Source: Punctularia strigosozonata HHB-11173 SS5
Lineage: Eukaryota > Basidiomycota > Agaricomycetes > Corticiales > Punctulariaceae
Assembly (NCBI RefSeq): GCF_000264995.1
Contig: NW_006767434.1
Coordinates: 2,558,344-2,622,343 of the forward strand
Direction of reading: 5' to 3'
DNA: 64,000 nucleotides
This document shows positions 9,567 to 58,574 of the stretch, one piece after another (within the stretch, counting starts at the first letter, position 1; each line of letters starts with the position of its first letter). The translations under genes were made by a program, and so were the position numbers. The notes under the pieces were generated by a model that was given only the letters and a program-made list of their open reading frames with translations, ran no database searches and was not told the DNA's origin.

Positions 9567-10833
9567 ATGGCGTTCACATCTTTCTTTGCTTTCGTCATAC
9601 TCGCCGCGGTCGCCTCCGCTGCTCCTGCCAACCAAGCTGGCGTATGCCCCGACGGCACCCACGTATCGAACAAGGCGTGTTGCGCTTTCATTCCTGTAAG
9701 CAGACATACTTCAGTACTGTTTGCGCATGAATAATTATTCCCCTCATAGCTCGCGCAAGATCTTCAGCAAACCGTCTTCCAGAATGAGTGTGGCGAAGAT
9801 GCTCACGAGGTCATCCGCTTGACTTTCCACGATGCGATTGCCATTTCCCAGAGGCAAGGTCCTAAGGCGTGAGTTATCGTCTTTATATCCGCTTTTGTCC
9901 TGCTCACCGGGCTCATCTCGTAGTGGTGGAGGCGCGGACGGTTCAATGTTGCTTTTCCCTCGCGTTGAGCCTGAGTTCCACGCCAACGACGGTATTGACG
10001 ACTCCGTCAACAACCTTATCCCTTTCCTCGCCAAGCACCCGGTCAGCGCTGGTGACCTCGTTCAATTCGCCGGCGCGGTCGCGCTCAGCAACTGCCCCGG
10101 TGCCCCGCGCCTCGAGTTCTTGGCCGGTCGACCGAACCACACCATTCCTGCGGTTGATGGCCTCATTCCCGAACCACAGGACAGCGTCGACAAAATACTC
10201 GCACGCTTTGAGGACGCCGGCAATTTCTCGCCATTCGAGGTCGTCTCACTCCTCTCTTCGCATTCCGTCGCCCGCGCGGACAAGGTGGACACCACGATCG
10301 ACGCAGCTCCGTTTGATTCCACGCCCTTCACCTTCGACACCCAGATCTTCCTCGAGGTGCTCTTGAAGGGCGTAGACTTCCCCGGGACAAACAATAACAC
10401 GGGCGAAGTCTCCTCCCCTCTCTCCAAGCACTCGGGCAACGATACAGGGGAGCTGCGCCTTCAGTCCGACTTCTTGCTTGCGCGTGACCCGCGCACTGCC
10501 TGCTTCTGGCAAGGCTTCGTGAACGAGCAAGACTTCATGAGCAGCTCTTTCAGAGCGGCCATGGCTAAGCTCGCCGTCCTCGGTCACAACCGCAACGACC
10601 TCATCGACTGCTCCGAGGTCGTTCCCGTCCCCAAGCCCGCCGTAAAGAAGCCCGCGACGTTCCCTGCCACGAAGACCAGGAATGATCTCGACAAGTTGAC
10701 CTGTAACAAGCCCTTCCCTGCCTTAGGCACCGACCCTGGCCCCACTGAGACGCTCATCCCTCATTGCCCGGACGGTGGCCAGTTCTGCCCCTCCGTGCAG
10801 TTCGACGGTCCGGCCACGGGCTCGTCATCTTGA
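9567..10833 (+). CDS. mnp: Manganese peroxidase (class II secreted heme peroxidase)
   Basis: Three exons (9567-9695, 9750-9868, 9924-10833) give 385 residues. The signal peptide is [20 protein letters not shown]. The protein oxidises Mn2+ to Mn3+ outside the cell, using H2O2, in lignin breakdown. The distal site has R66 and H70 (in [13 protein letters not shown]); the proximal heme ligand is H196 ([12 protein letters not shown]). The three Mn2+ ligands are all present: E59, E63 and D202. S191 stands where lignin and versatile peroxidases carry the exposed catalytic Trp, so this is a true MnP. The C-terminal tail [11 protein letters not shown] supplies the extra disulfide typical of MnP. It closely resembles Phanerochaete chrysosporium MnP1 along its length but has only two introns. 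Confidence 0.95.
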
Positions 10834-42040: not shown

Positions 42041-44394
42041 TCATGCGTCCGTGATGCAGCCGTGGCTCGCATCCTCCACGTTCTTGATGTACTTGTACAA
42101 CGTGCCCTGCGTTGCCTTCAGCGGCGGTGCCTTCCATGCTGCCCGCCTCCGCGACAATTCCTCATCCGAAACGTGGAGTTCGATGGTGTTTTTCACCGCA
42201 TCGATGGATATCGTATCGCCGTCCTGGACAAGCGCAATAGGTCCGCCGACTTGGGCCTCGGGCACCACATGACCGATGCAGAATCCATGAGATCTATTAT
42301 GGATAAATTGCCGTCAGCCACCGATACACGAGTAAGAGAGGAAGCGACGCACCCGCCGCTGAAACGGCCATCGGTGAGCGATGCAACATCGTATCCGAGT
42401 CCGGCGCCCATGATAAGACTGGTCGGTTTCAGCATCTCCGGCATGCCTGGGCCACCCTTGGGTCCGAGGTATCGGAGGACAACGACTGTCTTCTTGCCCT
42501 TCTTGATCGATCCGCTCTCGACGGCCGTGACAAAGTCATCCTCGGAGTCAAATGCGCGGGCCTTTCCGGTGAAGCTTAGTCCTTCCTTGCCCGTAATCTT
42601 CGCTACGGCACCGCCCGGTGCAAGGTTACCCTTCAAGATCCTGCCAACGTTGCGTCAATGTGCAGCCAGGATAACAAGGCCATAGAGATGATGTACCTAA
42701 GATGACCGGTGGGCTTGATGGGTTTGTCCAAAGGACGAATGACGTCCTGGGTGAATGAGAGTTCGCCATGTTCGTGAACCCAGCGCTCGAGGTTTTCACC
42801 GAGTGTGCGTCCAGTGACCGTCATGCCGTTTCCGTCAATGAGACCGTTCTTCATCAAATAATGGAGAATCGCTGGCGAATCCCTTAGTACGAGCGACGTA
42901 CTAAGTTGGACACCACTTACTCGGGATACCGCCAATCTTGTGCAGATCTTCCATAACGTATTTGCCACTAGGTTTCAAATCCGCAATGAAGGGTATGCGA
43001 TCGGAGACGCTTTGAAAGTCGTCAATGGTAAGCTTGACGCCCACAGAATGTGCGATGGCGAGCAAGTGAAGGACGGCGTTGGTGGATCCACCGAGGATCA
43101 TCGTCAAGACCTGCATGTATGCGAGCTCAAGTCAAACCAACGACCGTCTGGAGAACTCCAATTCGTACCATCGCATTTTCAAACGCGGTACGTGTCATGA
43201 TGTCCCGGGGCAAGATGTTCTTTTCCAGCAGGTTACGCATAGCAGGTCCAACTTGGTCGCACTCGATTTGCTTCTCCTCGTATTCCGCAGGGAAAGAGGA
43301 AGAACCGGGCAGCGTCATGCCGATCGCTTCGGCAGCGCTGGCCATCGTATTTGCGGTGTACATCTACAGAACTTGTCGGTATCACAGCGCATGAAGTTAG
43401 CCGATCAACTCACTGCGAGTAAGGTCAGGAATACTTCATCACTCAAACTGAGGGTCTCGTACCTCCTCCGCAAGCACCCGGGCCTGGACAGGCGTGTCTG
43501 ATGGTGTTGTACCGCTCCTGCTCGGCATCAGGGGTCTTGCCCTCTTGAAGGTACTTGCCGTAGGACTGGAATGCTGAGACGATGTCCAAAGGAGGACCTC
43601 CACCACATGAACCGGGTCTGATGGTTCCACCGTAGACCATCAGCCCTGGCCGGTTCAGCCTGCCAACTGCATGTGCGTTAGATGGGGTTTCTCTGGAGAC
43701 TAGGCTGCTGCTACTCACGCGCCATGAGCACACCGGGCATATTCTTGTCGCACCCCGGAATCACGACCATGCCATCCAGCCAGTGTCCTCCGGCCGCGGT
43801 CTCGACCGAGTCCGCGATAAGATCTCTCGACTGCAGCGAGTAGGACATCCCGCGGGTGCCCATGCTAATCCCGTCGCTAACTCCGACAGTGCCGAACTGG
43901 TAGCCAATCAGGTCCGCGTCTACGACGGACTTCTTGACACGCTGGCCCATGGCAAGCAGATGCCGGTTGCATCTGAGAGGTCAAAGTGAGCTTGAAAGCA
44001 GGAGAGGTGCAGCGGGTCGGGGCCTACGGATTGCCTTCATACCTGGAGTGGTGTGCGATGAGAGAGAGTCGGTCTGGAGCGTGACGGGAATAACTCACCA
44101 TACGCTAGCCACGCCGACCATCGCCTTGTTGAAGTCGTCATCCGTTTTGATGCCCTCCGTCGCGTACAACATGGCCTATCATCGCAGGGTCTCAGTCTCC
44201 ACCAATAGATGCGGTCGTATTAGTCGCGGTACCTGGCTCGCGCCTTGTGCCTTTGGTTGGGTGATGTTTCTGCTATAGCGGTTCATGATGGGTTTCTCGC
44301 TACGGCGCGCAGCCGCCGCGCTGAAGCACCGAGCGCCATGGCGCGTAGACTGGCCGCGACACAACGGCAGACGAGCACTCATCTTGCAAGGCAT
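42041..44394 (-). CDS. ILV3: Dihydroxy-acid dehydratase, mitochondrial
   Basis: The start is at 44394 ([20 protein letters not shown]), with a second ATG at 44382. The first ~35 residues are a mitochondrial presequence. The enzyme uses an Fe-S cluster to make the 2-keto acids for valine and isoleucine. Visible signatures include [20 protein letters not shown] (cluster Cys), [29 protein letters not shown] then [20 protein letters not shown] (cluster Cys), [20 protein letters not shown] and, near the end, [20 protein letters not shown]. The C-terminus is [11 protein letters not shown]. There are about nine exons; those joining the listed motifs were read from frame changes with GT-AG borders. 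It converges with RIO1, 102 bp apart. Confidence 0.93.
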
Positions 44395-45789
44395 TTGCTT
44401 CGGACGTGACTCCGAACGAGGAGCCTTTCGGTCGCCCACGTGGAAACGCTCCCACAGCCCTGCTCCACGTGCCCTTTCAATGATGCTCCAGCTGAGATGG
44501 TTCGGTGCATGTACACGGGGGGCGAACATCAGGCAAATTACGATTTCACAACGGCGTCCACAGAATGGCATGGAAGAGATCGATGCATACATCCAGGCAC
44601 TACTCTCCTGCTGATTGCTACTGCCGTCAGATCGTGCTCGTCGCGCGACTCCTATACTCACCGCCTCGGGACTAGAATAGAGGCGGTACCGGGTGAGACA
44701 CAACTCAAAAACGCCGTCGGCCTGGCAGGTCCGCCGCGAGGATCGACGTACGAACCACCCGATATCGTCATCCAGGAATTACCGGCGGCCCGGTATAAAT
44801 TCCTAGTGCGATGATGTTACTAAGCATGCATATGCATATGGGTGCGTTGCCCGGGTCAGCGGGACCGCGATCTTTCGAGGGACGTGATGATCGAGGGGCT
44901 CGAGGTTGTCTCACCGAGATAGAGGTAGCGTGCTCTTAGACGCTGTTAGCATAGAATGCAGAGAGTCCGTACGCAAACGGCGTTCCTGAGGGTCATCCTG
45001 GGGTCCAATGCGAGAAGTCGCAGGGCGATAATCTAGTAGGTGGAGAGTTCAAGCTCAGAAAACGCGACGAAACCGAGGTCGTACCGGACTATCGGCACGG
45101 TGTTGACTAAAGCGGCCAAGAAGGAACAGGGGCTAGTCAGATTGGCTGGAAAAGATCTGATGGCGATCCAGTCAATGTTATCCAGGAAACACGTTACGCC
45201 CCGTGGCCCGCTGCCTTGAATTATCGCGCTCGTCTTCATACTCACAGCACGGTAGGTATTATTCCACGAGGCCCGCCGCACTTCCTCTTATCTACCGGGC
45301 TCGCGGTGCGGAAGATATTCACCGACACCGGCGTCGGCCGGAGCTGCCCCGTCTGAAAGGAGCGTGGCGGACAACGCAAAGAGGGGGGCGCCTTTGGCAG
45401 TGTCGTTGTCGCCAGCCACATCTCTCAGCAGCTCTTTCATCTAGACCACCACATCGCTGCCGTCTGGCCTTGCGACGGGGCCCTGCGGATCCATTAACAT
45501 CCCGAAGAGGAGGCGCAGCAGCCGCTGCCGATGCGGATTGCCAGGAGCCCACTAGCCGATCGCCGTTAGGGAGCTCCTATTCAGTCTCGGAAAAGCTTGC
45601 GGGTCCAGGGACGAGAGCAAGTTAGCCCCTTTACACGGGTGCAAAATTTGCGACCGTCGTCGTGCAGCCAAGTCGACCGTCCCGATCGCGGATGGCCTAT
45701 TTCTCTTCTTTCACCTGCACGGATCCAGACATCTCACCTACCCCACACCCATCTTCGCGCACAAAGCTTGCTCTTCTATCAAATCGATC
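44395..45789. other. Divergent intergenic region, 1.4 kb
   Basis: Between ILV3 (minus) and the Zn2Cys6 factor (plus). I saw no gene, RNA or strong repeat beyond a short run of alternating 'gcatat' near 44825-44840. Confidence 0.5.
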
Positions 45790-48031
45790 ATGAGTGAACA
45801 GGATCGCCAACCTCCACGGGAGAGGTCCTCTCTCCCGACGCCCTTATTGCAGCACATATTACTTGGCCCTCGGGAAGGTAACAGTGACAACGCACCCCCT
45901 CCCGCCGCCGCCGGCGGACCGTTTGGCGAAGGTCAAAGCGCAAGGCCATCGCCCTATTCCTACGATCCAGCTCGAGATCCAGCCCAAGTTAACCAACAGC
46001 CGTCGTCGTCAAGGTCAGCCTTTGTTCGCTTTCATCGGAATAGGCGGCGATTATTCAGCGATAATGCGATTTCAGGCGTCCCACCGATCGTTCCTGGTCA
46101 GAGACCGCAGAGAGCAGATACCTGCCCGAACCGCGCCTGGCCAGCTCTTCCATTCCCCATGGTCCAGCGGATCGTCCGCTCTTTGGCAGGTACGGTACGT
46201 ATCCTGCCGGCGACGCCGCCCAAGATATCCCCTATAGGTGGCCGCCGCTCCCGCCGGTGCCGCCGTCCTATGCCGCGTATCCGCCAGAAGGGCGTCCGCA
46301 AGCCGCCGACGCTGGGTCGTCCTCGCGCGGCGGCGGTGGCGGCGGAGCCTACGCTCGCTGGCGGGAACCCAACGAACCATGGGGTCGCGGCGGCGGGACG
46401 AATCCACCAGACGCCCTTTTGAACTTTGCGCCCCATTCCTGGCGTGACCGAGCGGGCGGGCAACGCGGTGTCAACGACGCCGAACAGTACGAGCGTGGGA
46501 GAAGTCCACGTCGAAAGCGCCGCCTGCAAGATATCCTTCGAGACTCTTCGTCCGAGGCGGAGGGACGTTCGAGGAGTCGCAGCGTGCGGCCCGAAGGCAG
46601 CCTCCGGTGGTCAGGTACATCCGCGCCATATTTGCCTGAATTGCTGGAGCCGTCTGACGGGCCGACTGCAGCGTCGCCAGGGGCGGAGTACGCTACCCCC
46701 GACCGCCACGCGCAGCGAATGCAGCTGCCGCCGATCCTGACGGGCGAAGACATGCCGCGCCATCCTCCCCGAACGAACGTGACGCCGACAGCGCCCCTGG
46801 CAAACCTGACGCTGCGTTCGTTCACGCCACCCCAGCCGGGCCAGATCGAATCGCCGCGGCCCCAGCGCCCGCTTCCCCGGCGAGCGGGCTTCGATCCGCT
46901 CCCCCACGGCGCGGGCTACCGGGAGCTGGACAGCGGGGACGAGGAGACGGACGTGTCGCCTCAGACGTGGTCGGCGTCGCCGCTGCACGGGCGGCAGGAG
47001 AGCTCGGCGAGTCCCGCGGCGACGGCGTCGGGGGTGCGCTCGGTGCAGAGCGAGTCGGACAGGGACGAAGAGCCGTCCCGGAAGAGAGGGAAGGGCAGCC
47101 GGGCGAGGAAGGCGGCTATTGCGTGCAACAGATGCAGGAGTGAGCGGGGGGTTCTGCTCTCACGAGGGTTTCCTGGCTAATTACATAAATGGCGTCTACA
47201 GAACGAAAAATAGCCTGCGACGGAATCAAGCCGCACCCGTGCTCGTCCTGCTTGGGCAAGCTTTGGGAGTGCGTCTACGTCGAGAAGCAGAGGCGCCGCG
47301 GGCCAGGCAAGGCGCCGCGCGGCAGTCGAAGGAGACCGGTCGCAGATCCCAGACCGGACTCGTCTGCGCAGTCGTCCCCGGACCAGCGCACGCTCTCCTC
47401 CCCCGCGCTCTCGATGATGTCCCTGCCCTCGGCCGGCGGGGGCGCGCAGGGCGCCCCGTTCTCGTTCTCGCCGGTCGCGGGGCCCTCGCACCTGCCCGCG
47501 CACGCCGCACCGGACTCGGCGCCACCATCGATCTCGCCCGGCGGCACGGCGCTCCGCGCGCCCGAACGGGACTATCAGTTCATCGCCGAGCAGCCTGGGA
47601 TGAGCGCATCCCGGCGCGCCGCCACCCGCCGCCGGATGGAGCCCGTGGGCGCGCCGGTCGCGGGCTCTGGGCCTAGCCGAGCGGGAGGGCCTGCTTTGTA
47701 CCACGGAGCCCACGGCTCGGTTCCCTCCTCCGTAGCTCCGCACGGGCATCAGAACGCGCTGGGGGAGGGCCCGTCCGGTGCTGCGGGCGTGCCCACGGGG
47801 GAGTTCACGTTCAGCTACGCGTCGACGGCGGGGCGCTCGGACGCGGGGCTGTCGGTCAGACGGGGGGCGGGTGCGTACGGGGACGGGGACCGCCACTGGG
47901 GCGGGGGCGGCGAGGGTGCGGGGTCGCCTGGTCGACACGCGGCGCCACCAGCGGGTGGGAGCCCGAACAGAAGTCGGGGCGGGACGCCCGCCGGGAACAC
48001 GAGGCCCCCCCAGCGGGCGGAGGGGGCGTGA
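45790..48031 (+). CDS. Zn2Cys6 transcription factor
   Basis: Three exons (45790-46013, 46076-47139, 47202-48031) close in phase to 705 residues. The first ~425 residues are disordered, rich in Pro/Ser/Gly/Arg. The zinc cluster is split by the second intron: ACNRCRKRKIACDG then KPHPCSSCLGKLWECVYVEK, i.e. CX2CX6C followed by CX2CX6C, with basic QRRRGPGK after it. There is no middle homology region; the C-terminal 230 residues are disordered and Gly-rich. The cluster sits in the second half of the protein, unlike the common N-terminal position. It is the first of three Zn2Cys6 clusters in 5.6 kb. Targets are unknown. Confidence 0.85.
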
Positions 48032-48497
48032 GGCCAGGGCGGCTTCGTCATTGGGTGCTCGGCGCGGAGGCACCGCAGCGGCGATATGCGGACGCCTTGC
48101 ACCCGGAGATGTGATTTTTCCATTTGATCCGTATCATTACGGCAACCGAGCGAGCCCCTGGCCGCGCCCCCTCTTCCCCCCCTCTCCCCACCCCTATCCT
48201 GCGCCTTGCCATAATCCCTAATCCCCCACCAGGCCTATTAATCACCGTAGAGCGCCCTGTACGCATGCGATAATCGAGCGTAGCATCGTCAGTTGTAATC
48301 CTGCCCGAACCCCACCCCCCCACGCGCCCGAGCGCCGCATGATTGGCCGGAACCACGTTAAATATTAAATTGCGGCTCCGCCCGGGGCGAGGGGACTGGG
48401 CCCGGCCGAATTTCTGGTGGAAGATGGGAGGGCGGAAGCACCGCGTTCTCGACTCGGGTCAAGTCCGCGCGGGGCAGCGGGCTGCTTGACCACGCCC
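48032..48497. other. Intergenic and 5' leader of the septin-like/TF locus
   Basis: Very GC-rich, with CCCC-rich runs. It contains the presumed promoter of the next gene and a short upstream ORF at 48424-48489. Confidence 0.5.
48424..48489 (+). promoter_or_regulatory. Upstream ORF, 21 codons
   Basis: An ATG at 48424 opens a 21-residue frame (MGGRKHRVLDSGQVRAGQRA) whose stop at 48487-48489 lies 8 nt before the main ATG at 48498, in a different frame. If the leader includes it, it should lower translation of the main frame. Confidence 0.45.
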
Positions 48498-51382
48498 ATG
48501 GCCGCCAGGCGCACCGACGACGACCGCCCCGACGCCTGGCCAGCCCCCGCCGCCGTCAACGTCGTCACCCGCGTCCCCGCCCCCGCCCCGCCGCGCCGCG
48601 ACATGCACCACCACCCCCCGCCCGCCGCACCGCCCGCCGCCAGCGAGGGTCCGTCCTCCGCCGGCTGGACGCTCATGGTCGCCGGCCAGCGCTCCGGCAA
48701 GACCTCCTTCCTCCGCCTCCTCCTCGACACCAGCGACGTCGCGCCCTCGGCCAGCCACGACCAGGTCGCCGCCGTCGCCAAGTTCGTCCAGGGGTGCAGC
48801 AGCCACACCACCCATCTCCGCCAGGCCGCCGTGGACGTGCTCGTGCCCGATATGGACGACCACACACGTCGTCTCGTCACCCTCGCCGTTATCGACACCC
48901 CGTCGCTCGACTTTAGTGACGAGGGCGCCCTCGAGCGGCAGACCCAGGACATTCTCCAGTTCGTCGACGCCAAGTTTGCCGAGAGCTGCGACGATGTGCG
49001 TGTTCACCCACTCAAGCGCACCGCAAAGCACCGCGTTCGTCCTGCATTCTAACGTATTTACCACAGGACTACAAGGCCAGGACCGGCGACCACCACGTCC
49101 ACCTGTGAGTACCCCCCCGTCACGTTCGCCTTTTCCGTCTTATCGCGCTTCCTGACCTTGTGACCCCAGCTGCCTGTACTTCCTGGACCCAGACGTTATC
49201 GTGCCGCCACAGGTCCCGAGCGCGCCTCCGCCCATGGTTCCTAGGGCGCGGACTTCTTCCCATACAGACGGCGAACCCTTCATCCTCGAAGCGCCGGTCA
49301 CGACCAACCCGCTGCTTTACACACCCGTCGTCCCCGCTGCGGAGATCGAGACCATACGCCGGCTCTCCGCCCGCGTGAACGTGCTCCCCGTGATTGCACG
49401 CGCCGACACGCTCACGAACGACCGGCTCGCGGCCGTCAAGATGGCCGTGCGCAACGACCTCGCCCGCGCGGGTATCGGCTTTGGCATCTTCGACCAGTCC
49501 GAGGAGGACGTCTCGCCGCTCATGTCTCGGCCTGCCTACTCGAATGGAAATGGACATGCTTCTCGCATCTCGCCGCCTTCTCCTCCGCGCGTCCCGTACG
49601 CGCTGATTTCCCCCGACCTCTATGCTCACAGCGACGGAGCCGCCCAAGTCCCTCTGTCGCGTCACGAGCTGATAGAACAGTACACTCCTTCCCATAACCG
49701 CCCCTCTAACCTCGTCCTCGGAAAATACACCCGCACGTATCGCTGGGGCTCGCTAGACGTCCTTGACCGCAAACATTGCGATTTCCTCTACCTTCGCGCC
49801 GCCATATTCCATCATATGGAGGTGAGCGACCGCCTGGCTGTTCGTCGTCCCGCTCGCTAACGTTTTGCCCAGACGTTGCATACATATACCAAGGGCTACC
49901 TCTTCAAGCGATACAAGACAGAGGTTCCGGCACACCGGATGCAGGCGCCCGTCCATCACCCGGTATCCCAACACAGTCGACGCCTCCCTCCGCTCTCCGA
50001 GGTCTCGAGAAGCCTCCCCGCATTGGAAGCACCACATCCAGCCGCGGCAGTGGACCGGCATTCCTCCCTTGGTACCCCGCTCACTCTCAGGGCCGACCCA
50101 CGGGTAGCGGGATCTGGCATTCTCGGTCCAGAGGTCGCCGTCCATCCTCCGACCGATAAAGCTCCCTATCCCGATCCGAGTAAGTCAATGTCCTCCCTTC
50201 CCCACCTCCTCGCCCTCGCCGCCCGCTCTCATGTGTGCATTCCTACGCATGGAACGAGAGTAAGCAAGCTGACGTCCTTCCTGCAGGTCTTTACAAGCAG
50301 CGGGCCAAGAAGATCCCCGTGGCCTGCAACTTCTGCCGATGTAAGGCATTGTGTGGCCATCAGCATCTTGATTTCACGTACTCATGCTTCGCCAGCCCGC
50401 AAGCTGAAATGCGACGGAGGACGGCCCGCGTGTAGCCAGTGCCTCAAGCGTGGCAACACCTGCGATTACATTCACAACGTCAAGCGCCGAGGCCCAGGCC
50501 GGCCGCCGAACCAATTCGGGGACAGCGGGAGCGAAGCGGAGAGCAGCATCGGCCGATCCCCTTACGACACCCCCTCGCGGTCCCCGGAGGTGCAAATGCA
50601 TCCGCCGCGCAACGGATCGACCGTGGACATGCTCTTGTCAGCCGAATCCGCGCATCCAGCGGCAATGAGCGTTTACGGTCCGCCCGAAGACTCGCTCTCT
50701 GTGCATCGTCATCGTACGGACGGCAGGCCGCGGTCCAATACCCTCGGCGGCTCGTCAACATCGTCAGGTCACGCAGAACCCCCCTTCAACGAGCGGCATC
50801 TGCCTCAAATGCCGTTCTCCTCTCCGCCGTCACCTGTCCAACGTGACAATGGATCATACTCGGCGAACAGGTCCGGGATGGATCCGCCCCCGACCGCGAA
50901 AAAGCGCGGCTCCGTCTTCGTGCGGGGACACCGACAGTCACACGGTTCCAAGGTCGTCGCTTGCAACTTCTGCAGAGGTGGGCTGGACCTTTCTCCCGTC
51001 TTTCCGTCATCTCGGTGCCTATTTTCTCATATATTCAATTTTGCTCCCCTCCTTAGCACGCAAGACCAAGTGTGACTCTGTCCATCCAACGTGCGCGAGC
51101 TGTGCCCGCAGGCAGTTGCCCTGCAGCTACATAAACGGCGCCTCCGGCAGAAGCGCGGGGTCCAGCGAGTCTAGAGCGAAGGAGGAATCCAACCCTTCTT
51201 CGCCCTCGCCCTCGCCTCCGCCTTCGGCTGACCGTGTCTCCTTGAACCGTATCTCCTCCGCGGACAGGTACCCGCACGAAGACGAGTACACCGATGGGAG
51301 CGACATCGGTCCGCTTAAGAAGATGCGCCTAGAGGGGATGAACGACAGCCCCATCGCCGTTGCCACACTGCTAAAAACATAG
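48498..51382 (+). CDS. Septin-like GTPase fused in frame to a double-Zn2Cys6 protein
   Basis: Seven exons (48498-48995, 49067-49104, 49170-49821, 49873-50179, 50287-50340, 50396-50977, 51057-51382) keep phase throughout and give 818 residues. Residues 55-425 are a septin-type G domain: P-loop VAGQRSGKTSFLRLL (from ~61), DTPSLDF where DTPG is usual, VLPVIARADTLT (G4), the septin-unique YRWGSLDVLDRKHCDFLYLR, and the end helix LHTYTKGYLFKRYKTE. A ~75-residue linker leads to cluster 1, VACNFCRSRKLKCDGGRPAC (about 511), and cluster 2, VVACNFCRARKTKCDSVHPT (about 707). Both have the CX2CX6CX6CX2CX6C pattern. Alternatively these are two genes: a downstream one could begin at an in-frame ATG near 49936 inside the last septin exon, or an unseen splice could end the septin part. 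Septins normally scaffold the cell cortex; a fused product is unexplained. Confidence 0.65.
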
Positions 51383-51874
51383 AGGACGCCCTGCCGATAC
51401 GGGCGCGTCGCCGGATACTATCACAGGACTATCGCACCCGCTCCAGTATCTGTTTTGCCTTTCTTTTCTTTTCTCTGTGCCGTTGTGGGTTTCCGTGGGA
51501 CCGTAGCGCTCGCTATCTGTATTCTGACCGACCCGAAAGATGTAGTTGTACCATCACCACCCCTGTTTTCTTCCCTTGGTCCGTGCCGCATTCCAGATCG
51601 CTCGCGTAACACGTAACAATTCTTCATGTATTTATGTTCTGGGTCGCACCTGTCCATATAGATTGTTCTCGTAGCTGATATACACGGTCTTGTGGCGCGG
51701 ATAAGGCCGGCATGTCCGTGGATTGATATTGGCCGGGGCTTCGCTCCTCTGAGATAGGAAACGAGGGGGATGCGTACGTGTGGGAGGCAGGGGCTGATCA
51801 CCGGTGGTTGCAGGATGCCCCCCCCAGGTCGGTATCGGCCTGCCCACGAGCCCTTCCATAGACGCGGACCGACC
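51383..51874. other. Intergenic
   Basis: Separates the double-Zn2Cys6 stop from the chorismate mutase start. No gene or TATA box was recognised. Confidence 0.5.
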
Positions 51875-53028
51875 ATGCAGAGCAACTACTTCCTATCGCG
51901 CGACCCGCTCTCGCTGGATTCGATACGCTCCATCCTGACACGCCTCGAAGATACGATCATCTTCCTCCTCATCGAACGCGCCCAGTTCGCGCACAACCCG
52001 AAGATCTACCAGCGCGGCGCCTTCCCCGAGCTCGCCGCCCAGGGGTTCGACGGCAGCTGGCTCGACTGGTTCCTGAAGGAGACCGAGACGTTCCATGGTA
52101 CACCTCCCTGAAGTCCCTTACTCGCTTCGTGCTGCGCGGCTGATACCAGGCCTCCCCCAGCCAAGGCCCGGAGGTACACAAGGCGAGGCAGCGACCGTGA
52201 CCATATCTGACCGCCAGCGCTGATCGTCTCGCTTGAACGGCAGCCCGGACGAGTACCCGTTCACCGAGGGCCTCCCAGAGCCCGTCCTCGGCCCGCTGCC
52301 GTTCCCCCAGATCCTGCATCCAAACAACGTGAACGTGAACCCGTCCATCCTCTCCTTTTACACGCGCTCCATCGTCCCCCGGATCACCAAGCAGGCGACG
52401 CTCGCACTAGCCGCGATCAAGCGCGCCAACGGCATAAGGGGCGACGCCGAGTACGAAGACGACGGGAATTACGGCAGCGCGGCGACCATCGACGTCGAAG
52501 TCCTCGCCGCGATCAGCAAGCGGGTGCACTACGGTGCGTGCGCAACGACATATAACCCCAGAATCGCGTCGGCTGACAGTGGGGGTGGGGGGACATTCTG
52601 GAACGCGCCCGGGGCGATCAGGCAAATTCGTATCGGAATCCAAGTTCTCCGACCATCCCTCCGCCTTCATCCCGCACATCAAGACCAGGGATCGCGAGAA
52701 GTTGGAGGCGCTCATCACCAAGCCCGAGGTCGAGGCTCGGTTGCTGCAGCGCCTGAGGAAGAAGGCCGCCCTGTATGCGCAGGATTTCGCGCCCGACGGC
52801 GAGCCGCTCGGCCAGAGTGGCGCTCTCAAGATCGACGTGGACGGCGTCGTCGAGCTGTACGAGAACTACATCATTCCTCTCACGAAGGAGGTCGAGGTCG
52901 GTCGTGACATGATGAATGATTGGCAGGCGTAGATCCGGGACTGACAGGTATAATCACAGGTAGACTACCTTCTCGTGAGACTCGAGGGCCTATCGGAGGC
53001 CGAGATCGAGGAACTATCCAAGAAATAA
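51875..53028 (+). CDS. ARO7: Chorismate mutase
   Basis: Five exons (51875-52097, 52161-52182, 52244-52533, 52622-52896, 52960-53028) give 292 residues. The enzyme converts chorismate to prephenate for Phe and Tyr. It is the all-helical AroQ fungal type: N-terminal [20 protein letters not shown] (active-site Arg), then AKARRYTSPDEYPF, a [20 protein letters not shown] segment with [11 protein letters not shown] (Arg/Lys of the active site), and the C-terminal [20 protein letters not shown] holding the catalytic Glu. The 22-bp exon 2 is followed by an intron with a GC donor; using it restores the same spacing as yeast Aro7 (RRFESPDETPF). Allosteric control by Trp and Tyr, as in yeast, is likely but not visible. 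Confidence 0.93.
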
Positions 53029-53285
53029 ATATCGCTACACACATGTACTACTGTCTCTTGGAAATGTCGGAAGAAACTATACTGGACGCCAAGTCCGCAT
53101 GAGATAACGAGCAAAAGATATGAGCAATAACGAAGATAGGATGTACAGGGATTCCAGAATGCAGCAATAATCCACGTCTCACAACCATATTACGATGGAA
53201 GCAACACAAAAATAAGCATAAATGATACTCCACACGGCGATCACATCCTGCGCGTCTTCCGAAGTTGTAGATGGGGTAAAAGTAT
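53029..53285. other. Convergent 3' region
   Basis: 257 bp between the stops of chorismate mutase and the minus-strand septin-like gene. It is A+T-rich, with no gene. Confidence 0.5.
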
Positions 53286-55466
53286 TCACAGACCAAGATC
53301 TATGGGGAGAATCAGCAACTTGAAGCGACATGTCTGATGCAAGCATCCTATACCTTCCAGCAACCGCAAGGTCTCGTCTTCACTGATGGTCCTGGTAGCG
53401 CGTCTGGCAAGCAGTTTTTCGGTTCTGTACTTTTCGTACAAAACCTCTCTTGTCCTGTTTTTGAGGGACTGGAGGACATATAATCAGCATATAGAATATG
53501 TTATCAGAGCACAGAACTGTTCAAGATACCTTCATATGCGTGGACAGCACGGCGGTCCTCATCGCCGCGAAATCGCAATGATTAGGGTCAAGGACGTCAA
53601 TCGTACCCCATCGGAATTTGCGCAGGAAGACGCCCCGCAAATCTTCAGGGGGGCCCATGACGTAGGACGCAGGCCGACTCCTCGCATGCGTCGAATGGGT
53701 ATACTCAGATGAGGGAGACAAAGGTTCCTCCTTCTCTTCGCCTGCTGGGTGTGCATCGCCATTCTCCGAGGGAGTAACGACGGTCAGAGGTGTTGGCGTA
53801 GCGTCTCCGCTGGCCGATCCCGTGTCGGCACTGTGCAAGGAAATCGAACGAGACAGAGACTGGGCTAGCGAGGCGGTCGGGAGGGGCGCACCCATAGACG
53901 GGCGGCGACGGCGGGACGAGCGCTCCGGAACCATCAGCGCGAAGGGTAGCGATTCGGCCAGGTTGGCCTTCGAAACGACGGCGGCGGAGAAGCGCACGTT
54001 CGCGACGCTCTCCGTGTCCAGCTCGTCCTCCGGGTCCTCGACCAGTTCCTCGGTAGCTAGCAGCCTCCCCCGAGAACGGGAGCGCCTGAGAGACGGCGCG
54101 TGTCTGGGCCGGCGTAACTTGATGACCGGCCGAGACTGACGGCCGTCATCCGCGTCCGCCTCTTTGTCGTCTTCCGCTTTCGATGCATCGTCGCCGTTCG
54201 CGACCACTGGGCTGGTGCCATTGGGCGTGGTCACAATCGCGAAGGAGATGGCGGATTTCTTTGCGGGCGACACGGGTGAAGATGGGATCGACTCTTGGGC
54301 GCTGACGTCGCGATGGCCCGCAGGCTCGAAGATCCCGAGGTCGATGCGCGCTCCGCGCAGGTCGCGCCGAATCGCGTCTTTCAGTTCGGCGAGGGATTCG
54401 TCCGTGAGTGAGTCGGACCTCGCAATAACGGGTAGGACGTTGACGCGTTCCGAGAGGCGACGGATGACCCGTATCTCGGCGGGTGACATGGTAAGGCGCT
54501 TGCTCTCCTCGTCTTCGTCCTCGTCTCCGTGGCCGTCAGACGACATCGAGGCGTTGATAGCAGAGTATCTGAGAGTGGATTCCGAATGTGTCTTCGAAGG
54601 AAGCGATGAGAGCGCCCGACGCGCGGATGCGGACATGATGGAAGAAGGGTCGATCATGTATATGCACCTACTGCACTTGAGCACAGACCTGATCTAAAGA
54701 GCCCGTCCACTTACAAGTGGATGTGTTGGTCGCCTTTGCTTTGCCTTGCGACTTTTGACTCCTCCGCCATAGTGTCGGCATACAGAGAATCGACGTATTT
54801 CATGATGCCCGACACTTGCCGCTCCAGCTTCAGCTCCCGTGTCTCCCTAAAATCCAATCCAGGCGTGTCAACGACAGAGAACAGGATGCGGTCCGTCTTG
54901 GACTCGTATATTTCGACGCATGCAGTCTGGATGGACTGGGTACGTTTGGGGTCACCGCGTAAGAAGCGCTCCATGACGGCACGCTGATCAACTGTGGCTG
55001 TCGGAGACAGGTCCGCTGTCTCGAGAAGGAGACGTAGCAACGACGTCTTGCCGCAACCTTGGGCCCCCACAACCTGTCCAAACCCGTCTGAGTCGCGTTC
55101 GCAACCATCGAGGAATATCTTGTGACGTACCATAAGATTGAAAGTCGGGGGTACGCGCGTCTTTCTCTGGGTGGCTCGGCGAGGCGGAGGGCGCGTCTTG
55201 AACGTGTCGAACGCAGACGGTGGGGGCGGCGCCTGTCCATTTCCGTTGAGCGACCTGAACGGCTTGTGGAAGGGGATGGGGCCGTGATCGACAGGCAGCT
55301 CCGCCTTCGCCGCCGTGGGCTCGTTGACTTCGGAGATGCTGACGAGCTCCTCGGGCCATTGCAGCGGCGGCGCGTTCTGCGAGAGCTCTGGCAGTGACAG
55401 CGTCGGCCGTATGACAGGCGCGCCGGTGTCTTCGGGCTTCTTCGACTTGCGGCGAATAGAGAACAT
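53286..55466 (-). CDS. Septin-like GTPase, second copy
   Basis: Five exons (55466-55131, 55073-54715, 54670-53530, 53468-53354, 53299-53286) close in phase to 654 residues. After a Pro-rich N-terminus comes the P-loop VVGAQGCGKTSLLRLLLE (G115-S123), a G3 VVDTPGLDF, a G4-type VLPVIARSDSLT, and the C-terminal septin segment FRWGTIDVLDPNHCDFAAMR with NRTREVLYEKYRTEKLLARR. A long insertion of ~190 charged and Ser-rich residues (with RRSRSRGRLL) splits the domain between G4 and the C-terminal part. It is the paralogue of the septin domain at 48498, about 4 kb away in inverted orientation, but it ends normally with DLGL. The acceptor of exon 3 is the weakest splice call. Confidence 0.8.
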
Positions 55467-55871
55467 GACGTTCTACTCCCTTACGATGCGACCAAGACTG
55501 AAACAAAAGAAGAAAGCCAAAAACGAAAGGAAAAGGAGCGTAAGTAGACGTGTGAAGGCCACAGGAATATGTTTATGTTGCCACAATGGCCCGGGAACTG
55601 AAGTGGGAGAGAGAGACGGCCGGAGGGGCTCACGTGGCGACCGGTCCGGTACCTGACAGTGACGGCGACAGCCCTAGCGACGCCCGGATGCGCGGTCAAT
55701 CACGGTCGCGTCAATGTCATCTGCGCTTGATCTGCACGGCAACTTCCGAGGCACGTTTGGTGGCACGCCACAACCCTATCCTCTTGCAGATCCTCCTGCG
55801 AGGAACCGGATGTGCCTATGCGACGCCCGGGGTATCTCGTGAACACAGAACAGGGGCTCTGCAAGGCCCGC

Positions 55872-56132
55872 TTACCTCACAGGAGTGCTTATGGTACATA
55901 GACTGACGCAAATGTGCTCGCAATCCCGAACCTTCCTCTGCTGCACTCCCATAGGACGAAGATATCCCGGGACCACCTTGTGCCTCTGCCCTCTTCGCCA
56001 TATCCGCAGCTGATGTGTTACTGGTATATCTGGACTGGGGCCGGGATCCGAGAAGATCAGCGTGGTCAAGTCTCCAGATTCCGCTACAGTGGCGCCGCCT
56101 GCAGTAGATCCTCCAAGGCCTACGTTTGACAT
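55872..56132 (-). CDS. Possible small protein, 86 residues
   Basis: The ATG at 56132 opens MSNVGLGGSTAGGATVAESG, continuing with a plausible hydrophilic sequence to a stop at 55872. A donor-like GTGGTC within it would allow splicing to another frame. No domain or homolog was recognised; it may be a chance ORF. Confidence 0.25.
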   Translation of the reverse strand: MSNVGLGGSTAGGATVAESGDLTTLIFSDPGPSPDIPVTHQLRIWRRGQRHKVVPGYLRPMGVQQRKVRDCEHICVSLCTISTPVR

Positions 56133-56511
56133 CGGTGTACCATGACACGTAACCTGAACGCCGGCCTCAATTCGGGTGGTGGATCATAGAGCACAAATAT
56201 TCGTGTAAATGGCATATCTCCCAAATGTTCAGGGGCTACCGGAATAATATGAAGCCCCTTCATTCCTCAAAGCGACTTAAACCCCGAACCGGAGCCGAAG
56301 CTTCTCGACCTCCATCGGAGAGCCTTTCTTCCCTGAACCATCCGAGGTCGGGATCTCGTTCACTCGGCGCAACTCACGTCGACGTTTCTCATTGGCTGTG
56401 TCCGATGTCTTGGGGCCAGTGCACATGCCGCTCGGCGTGCTTCGCTTGGAGCGTCGTAAACTCACTGCTTGGACAGGGCACGTACATACTCCGAACTGCG
56501 TCAGAATGGGC

Positions 56512-56519
56512 TATATAAA
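56512..56519 (+). promoter_or_regulatory. TATA box of THI4
   Basis: TATATAAA lies 80 bp before the THI4 ATG. THI4 is typically a very highly expressed, thiamine-repressed gene in fungi, which fits a strong TATA promoter. Confidence 0.6.
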
Positions 56520-56595
56520 TCAAATCTACTCGGGACAGATGGTTTGCGTGGGTTGCGCTCTGCACCGACGTTCGCTATCTCTGTATCTCTTTTGA

Positions 56596-57764
<1,169 letters not shown>

Positions 57765-57945
57765 AGAACTGCACTGATTTCGGGTGCATGGACATGTATT
57801 ATACACGATAGCATATGCGTCATGGGTATTCACGATCCCACGTACTGCTGAGCGTTTCCACCCTGGCTGTCCCAAGACGGCTGGGGCTCAGGATCTCGTC
57901 CGCAGCACTGTCCCCTACGTGCGCCAAATATTGCGAAGCACATGG

Positions 57946-58574
57946 TTATCGTTGCGCGTCGTTCTCTTTCGATCGCGAATCCGGGTGCGTGTCGGCGTCG
58001 ACAGTAGCCGCAACCTCGGGCACGAGACGTGATATTTCGGAGAAAGCGGCTCTAAGCGCGTCAAGATCGGCGTCGAGCGACTCTGCGCGAGTTTTCATCT
58101 ACATGGGGGGGGGTAAAAGATCTGAAGGACACAGGCAGAACTAGACAATAACGTACAGCAGCGATTGTGTCCGAGGCAGCGATGAGTTCATGATGATGGT
58201 TGTACACGAGAGACTGGCGCTCGCCATCAAGCTCACGTATTTCTACGCGAATAGTGTCAGAGACGGCAAGGCGGGTATCGACCACTGTTTACCGGAAAGC
58301 AGTTCGTTCTCCCGCTTGAGGAGCGTCGAGAGGGATGCCGTGGTGATCAGCTGTTCGTAGTACGCTTTCGCGTCAAACGCCGGCGAATCTGCAAAACTTG
58401 AGCGACTCGAGCTCCGTCGCTTTGCCTGAACAGCTTCGTACCAAGGTCCATCGGATCGGAAGGTCGACCAGAAGGGGCAGGCGGGCCGATGCCTAACCCA
58501 TAGTGTTTCCTCAGCAGGTCCCTAGCGCGAGACTTGGCAGGTGGACTTCCTGGCCTCCATGAGCTCTCTGCCAT
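57946..58574 (-). CDS. VPS51: VPS51-like GARP tethering-complex subunit
   Basis: Four exons (58574-58442, 58388-58293, 58242-58157, 58098-57946) give 155 residues, close to the 164 of yeast Vps51. Seen are SRARDLLRKHYGLG near the N-terminus, then AYYEQLITTASLSTLLKREN, EIRELDGERQSLVYNHHHEL and IAASDTIAAMKTRAESLDAD, the conserved N-terminal Vps51/Exo84/Cog1 helix pattern. The protein is almost entirely helical, with a hydrophilic tail. It would act in retrograde endosome-to-Golgi tethering with Vps52/53/54. The short form matches fungal, not animal, VPS51. Confidence 0.85.

Follow-up and report, generated by a model that had tools for sequence, protein, structure and literature searches.

A probable in-frame fusion of a septin-like GTPase with two Zn2Cys6 clusters in Punctularia strigosozonata

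In the genome of P. strigosozonata HHB-11173 SS5 (33.6 Mb in 32 contigs), a single open frame at positions 48498–51382 on the forward strand of the window, the 64,000-nucleotide stretch analysed here (G000:C2:2558344-2622343), carries a septin-like GTPase, a linker and two Zn2Cys6 clusters. The frame is continuous, septin homology extends to residue 413, two clusters follow, and no in-frame stop intervenes. The reading that we favour is a real open-frame fusion, that is, one gene, which probably yields one 818-residue protein. Its domains are known ones in an apparently new combination, and the function that we propose for it below is deduced from the sequence.

Structure of the fused gene

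Retranslation agreed with the original prediction of seven exons in phase, giving 818 codons plus a stop without internal stops. Exon 1 (48498–48995) encodes a proline-rich N-terminus, the P-loop GQRSGKTS and, as located by alignment with a neighbouring paralogue, DTPS at the G3 position. Exon 2 (49067–49104) ends in HVHL, and the intron after it has an identical position and phase in the paralogue. Exon 3 (49170–49821) carries the G4-like ARAD and, from septin alignments, the septin segment WG..DV..HCDF..LR. Intron 3 (49822–49872; 51 bases) again has the position and phase seen in the paralogue; if it were retained, a stop would be reached at 49858–49860. Exon 4 (49873–50179) was assigned from homology and coding scores and contains the end of the septin domain (FKRYKTE, to 49926) followed by the linker (49927–50179). 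Intron 4 (50180–50286; 107 bases, GTAAGT...CTGCAG) was placed by its splice scores, and the alternative chosen by our decoder, 50233–50300, which leaves the reading frame unchanged, was ranked below it (splice sites 8.0 versus 10.8). Exon 5 (50287–50340) encodes KQRAKK and zinc cluster 1 up to its second cysteine. The 55-base intron 5 separates it from exon 6 (50396–50977), which encodes the remainder of cluster 1, the basic patch KRRGPGRPP, a low-complexity middle and cluster 2, again up to its second cysteine. Exon 7 (51057–51382) completes cluster 2 and encodes the C-terminal tail and the stop; translation and Pfam agree on the contents of exons 6 and 7. Introns 4 and 5 total 162 bases and contain no in-frame stop, so that retaining both would keep the frame and break cluster 1; their joint retention is a possible splice switch, or chance.

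In the translated protein, the septin-like GTPase thus extends to residue 413 and is joined by an 86-residue linker to the part with the two clusters; Pfam Septin (8.9e-30, three stretches) and Zn_clus (7e-19, two stretches) are both matched on one chain. The model frame was the best one in exon 1, with a coding score of 74.7 as compared with 42.8 for another forward frame and 41.2 for the opposite strand, and was likewise the best in exon 3 (62.1). Chance read-through of noncoding DNA was rejected for the locus as a whole on the strength of these exon scores and the zinc clusters. A search of 44000–58000 against Rfam gave no match.

The septin-like half

The fused protein scored 104.3 bits against PF00735 (cut-off, 26.2), and a phmmer search against solved structures returned 43 sequences at E ≤ 0.001, the best at 1.3e-15. 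Residues 367–413 aligned with residues 252–299 of 5ar1, which we take to be Cdc11 of yeast, up to FKRYKTE (i-Evalue of the stretch, 2.5e-4). The septin unique element and the last helix are therefore present, since this region matches Cdc11 and also stretches from four canonical septins of the same genome (the stretch from contig C10 includes some intron letters). As the phmmer alignment of this region crosses intron 3, that intron must be removed and exon 4 must be read in the fused frame; we regard this homology as the strong evidence, since without exon 4 in that frame the septin fold would lack its end. The original prediction had placed the expected end of the septin soon after FKRYKTE, and this is borne out by the paralogue, which reaches its own stop 25 residues beyond the equivalent YRTE.

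In the septin consensus, the P-loop reads GxxxxGK[S/T] and the G4 motif resembles AKAD. Both motifs are present in the translation of the fused copy, with the G4 lysine replaced by arginine. Together with the WG..DV..HCDF..LR segment and the last helix to Y.TE, they are what the protein shares with septins (PF00735) such as Cdc11 and SEPT9, from which it differs in being very divergent, in carrying insertions and in continuing into zinc clusters rather than ending. It also departs from the G3 motif DxxG, with DTPS in the place of the DTPG of the paralogue, and has few basic residues in front of the P-loop: only two K/R were counted in the 30 residues preceding it, whereas the paralogue has seven. 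Septins are cortical and septal scaffolds, and the original prediction had joined a cortical GTPase to DNA-binding modules; of this, the in-frame fusion stands as the best reading of the DNA, having survived our attempts to split it, but the link to the cortex is doubtful for the fused copy because of the reduced basic stretch and the altered G3.

The same changes, and a Septin score well below the 164 bits of the paralogue, are what would be expected if the septin half were a decaying duplicate that has lost its stop, in which case the read-through hybrid would be a by-product with no selected function and the zinc-cluster factor would be made from a start at 49939. We consider this very improbable, because the septin half runs for 413 codons without a stop or frameshift, its P-loop is intact, and the model frame is the best one in exons 1 and 3.

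The linker and the open frame

From 49861 onward, the exon 4 frame meets no stop until 51073–51075, even across introns 4 and 5. As had been claimed, the two halves are thus not separated by a stop, the number of in-frame stops in 49861–51072 being zero. A septin that stopped short of the zinc clusters would consequently require splicing of the linker into another frame. The two weak points that had been raised about the linker are both real features of the sequence. An in-frame ATG, which had been put near 49936, lies at 49939, and its start context falls at the 64th percentile of 61 decoded starts, which is average, as compared with the 36th percentile for the gene's own ATG at 48498. Another protein-like frame does cross the linker, with its stop at 50157–50159.

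These features bear on an alternative in which the locus holds two overlapping transcription units. The zinc factor would be transcribed from a separate promoter within the septin gene and start at ATG 49939, the septin would be terminated by retention of intron 3 or by unusual splicing within the linker, and the fused frame would not be the main product. The in-frame ATG, with a better context than that of the upstream start, is in its favour, as is the coding score of the first half of the linker, in which another frame (9.8) exceeds the fused frame (6.8). The fused frame scored highest in the second half (5.2, with −7.4 and −4.1 for the remaining frames) and across the linker as a whole (12.0, with 2.4 and −1.1). 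On balance, and in view of the decoding results given below, we judge two overlapping units to be possible but unlikely. Within the fusion that we prefer, a second, short product consisting of the DNA-binding part may also arise from ATG 49939.

When the 253-base linker was shuffled with its dinucleotides preserved, 649 of 2000 sequences remained open, and the coding score of the linker was matched or exceeded by 256 of the 2000, which is not significant; much of its openness and score is therefore accounted for by composition. With the final model, none of the 54 3′ flanks taken from decoded genes reached the linker score of 11.6 in any frame; six of these flanks were open in the frame that continues from the gene, and 13 in at least one frame. 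This comparison is biased toward the linker, however, as the flanks were picked by the same decoder. The linker statistics are moderate and do not by themselves prove a fusion.

An assembly or base-calling error would offer another explanation, in which a true stop or frame shift near 49927–50180 had been missed and the locus consisted of two ordinary neighbouring genes. The sequence comes from a single assembly, one base would be enough, and the GC3 of the linker (0.59) is below that of the septin part (0.82) and the zinc part (0.73). Such an error is nevertheless improbable, given that the fused frame has a positive coding score in each half of the linker and that strong splice sites stand on either side. 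In addition, a search of the genome with the linker plus the zinc part gave eight matches that covered the linker at the fused locus only (one weak match, E 0.002, begins at query residue 71), so that there is no sign of a collapsed repeat.

Attempts to split the gene

The locus was decoded with a home-made gene decoder, whose content models were derived from 253,000 bases (20 stretches of the same genome plus the window outside 45001–56000) and which was trained on 25 partly overlapping chunks totalling 243,000 bases, two of the 20 stretches having been dropped because they contain N. An earlier version, which predicted 1394 introns for 49 genes, was discarded; the final output comprised 61 genes and 304 introns. 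The decoder is rough and mis-splices cluster 2 as well as the P-loop exon of the paralogue. As a check, it kept the upstream zinc-cluster gene (ending at 48031) and a chorismate mutase model (starting at 51815) separate from the fused gene.

Unconstrained decoding of 48498–51382 gave a single gene (score, 197.2; 839 aa) that differed from our model in intron 4 and in the last intron. The last intron that it proposed, 51072–51126, would delete cysteines from cluster 2 and was therefore rejected; the fused frame is unaffected by this choice. The best split scored 189.2, or 8.0 nats below the fusion, and is exactly the arrangement expected of two overlapping units, with the septin ending in a retained intron 3 and the zinc part starting at ATG 49939. 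The lead of the fused gene was 5.5 and 11.5 nats at start/stop penalties of −5 and −8, respectively, and shrank to 1.6 nats at −3, where boundaries are cheap and two tiny frames of 66 and 6 bases were added outside the gene. Retention of intron 3, however, deletes the conserved septin end TLHTYTKGYLFKRYKTE, which is required by homology to Cdc11 and to the paralogue. Splits that preserve this end scored 181.8 (with cluster 1 destroyed), 181.1 and 177.9, and so cost at least 15.4 nats; the second of them uses an intron at 50072–50133 with a splice score of 1.2 and an ATG at 50188 whose context is at the 3rd percentile.

Unusual splicing within the linker was addressed by listing single GT-AG introns of 42–160 bases. 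Of these, 65 lead the septin frame into a stop, which lies before 50301 in 40 cases. The best combined splice score in these 40 was 5.3, as compared with 6.8–10.8 for the six introns of the model. Such splices are poor but not impossible, because 5.3 is above the 5th percentile of training introns (4.2).

The zinc-cluster half

The two Zn2Cys6 clusters, at residues 512 and 706, each have exactly the spacing C-X2-C-X6-C-X6-C-X2-C-X6-C. In sequence searches, cluster 1 matched Hap1 and Gal4, and cluster 2 matched Ppr1. The fused protein resembles fungal Zn2Cys6 factors (PF00172; Hap1/Cyp1, Gal4, Ppr1) in the six-cysteine spacing of both clusters, and differs from them in having two clusters per chain, a septin module in front and no third Pfam domain. 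At E ≤ 1, Pfam detected only Septin and Zn_clus in it, and the fungal-specific regulatory (middle homology) domain was not found at that threshold; this domain is common in Zn2Cys6 factors, but not universal. Basic patches were seen by eye in the zinc half.

A search with the double-cluster part in two collections, viral_contigs and genome_contigs, neither of which is fungal, gave 18 and 54 pattern matches, respectively, none of which was confirmed. By eye, neither a second cluster nor a linker-like N-terminus was seen at four further zinc-cluster loci of this genome (L012, L013, L014 and L016); L013 and L016 lie on the minus strand, and in L013 the cluster is followed by a similar patch, KRRGP. 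The zinc-cluster gene immediately upstream in the window (45790–48031, forward strand) has one Zn_clus match and carries the patch RRGPGKAP after its cluster, as compared with RRGPGRPP in the fused gene. These two neighbours may be old tandem relatives.

The paralogue and the origin of the fusion

The stand-alone septin-like paralogue (53286–55466, reverse strand) encodes 653 aa and matches Pfam Septin at 5.6e-48. Its alignment with the fused copy gave 35% identity over 292 columns and a second block ending in YKTE and YRTE in the fused copy and the paralogue, respectively, and the two genes have two introns in common at the same place and in the same phase. DTPG, the basic stretch and an own stop are retained by the paralogue alone. 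By eye, its G4 is separated from the C-terminal septin segment by a very long charged insertion. Besides the two septin-like genes of the window, at least four other septin loci were found in the genome (two on contig C1 and one each on C9 and C10); according to PMC1931588, basidiomycetes carry four or five septins.

A plausible origin, suggested by these relationships, is an inverted duplication of a septin-like gene, after which one of the duplicates came to adjoin a zinc-cluster gene and lost its own short tail and stop. If this is correct, the locus would clearly illustrate how local duplication and fusion can give rise to a new domain combination.

Between the two septin-like genes lies a chorismate mutase gene (51815–53028, forward strand; 1.6e-54 to 6hjw), a 175-residue piece of which gave no Pfam match.

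Possible function and comparison with known systems

Because the basic stretch is mostly lost, a serine replaces the last glycine of G3 and no third Pfam domain is present, the septin module would mainly serve as a dimerisation or nucleotide-sensing unit for the DNA-binding part, and not as a subunit of cortical filaments. Such a role appears more likely than one in cortical filaments. Tethering, by which the factor would be held at septin structures and then released, is possible, and the sequence features lend it less support than they do dimerisation or nucleotide sensing. A bolder proposal, which we put forward only tentatively and regard as unlikely, is that the septin GTPase module controls the two-cluster module, so that the nucleotide state of the septin at the cortex or septum, or its assembly there, would be converted directly into gene regulation, with no signalling cascade in between. 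A covalent link between septin and DNA-binding modules would connect cell architecture directly to gene expression.

As a caution against our reading, a septin gene model has been joined to its neighbour before: in an author's note to PMC11238149, the aspE record of A. nidulans is described as an apparent erroneous fusion with a neighbouring gene, and that model was replaced. The present gene is similar in that respect, but its two halves share a frame without a stop. In the rice blast fungus, according to PMC5542705, the organisation of septins is under the control of a Zn2Cys6 regulator, Tpc1, which is a separate protein. Among the matches listed in a search of open-licence literature, which consisted mostly of titles and the openings of abstracts, no septin-Zn2Cys6 fusion was described, which leaves the originally proposed new architecture uncontradicted.

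Elsewhere in the window, we observed a Thi4 family gene (56599–57764, forward strand; 1.6e-101) and a fungal peroxidase gene (9567–10833, forward strand) with the Pfam domains peroxidase and Peroxidase_ext, the latter gene being in keeping with a wood-decay basidiomycete.
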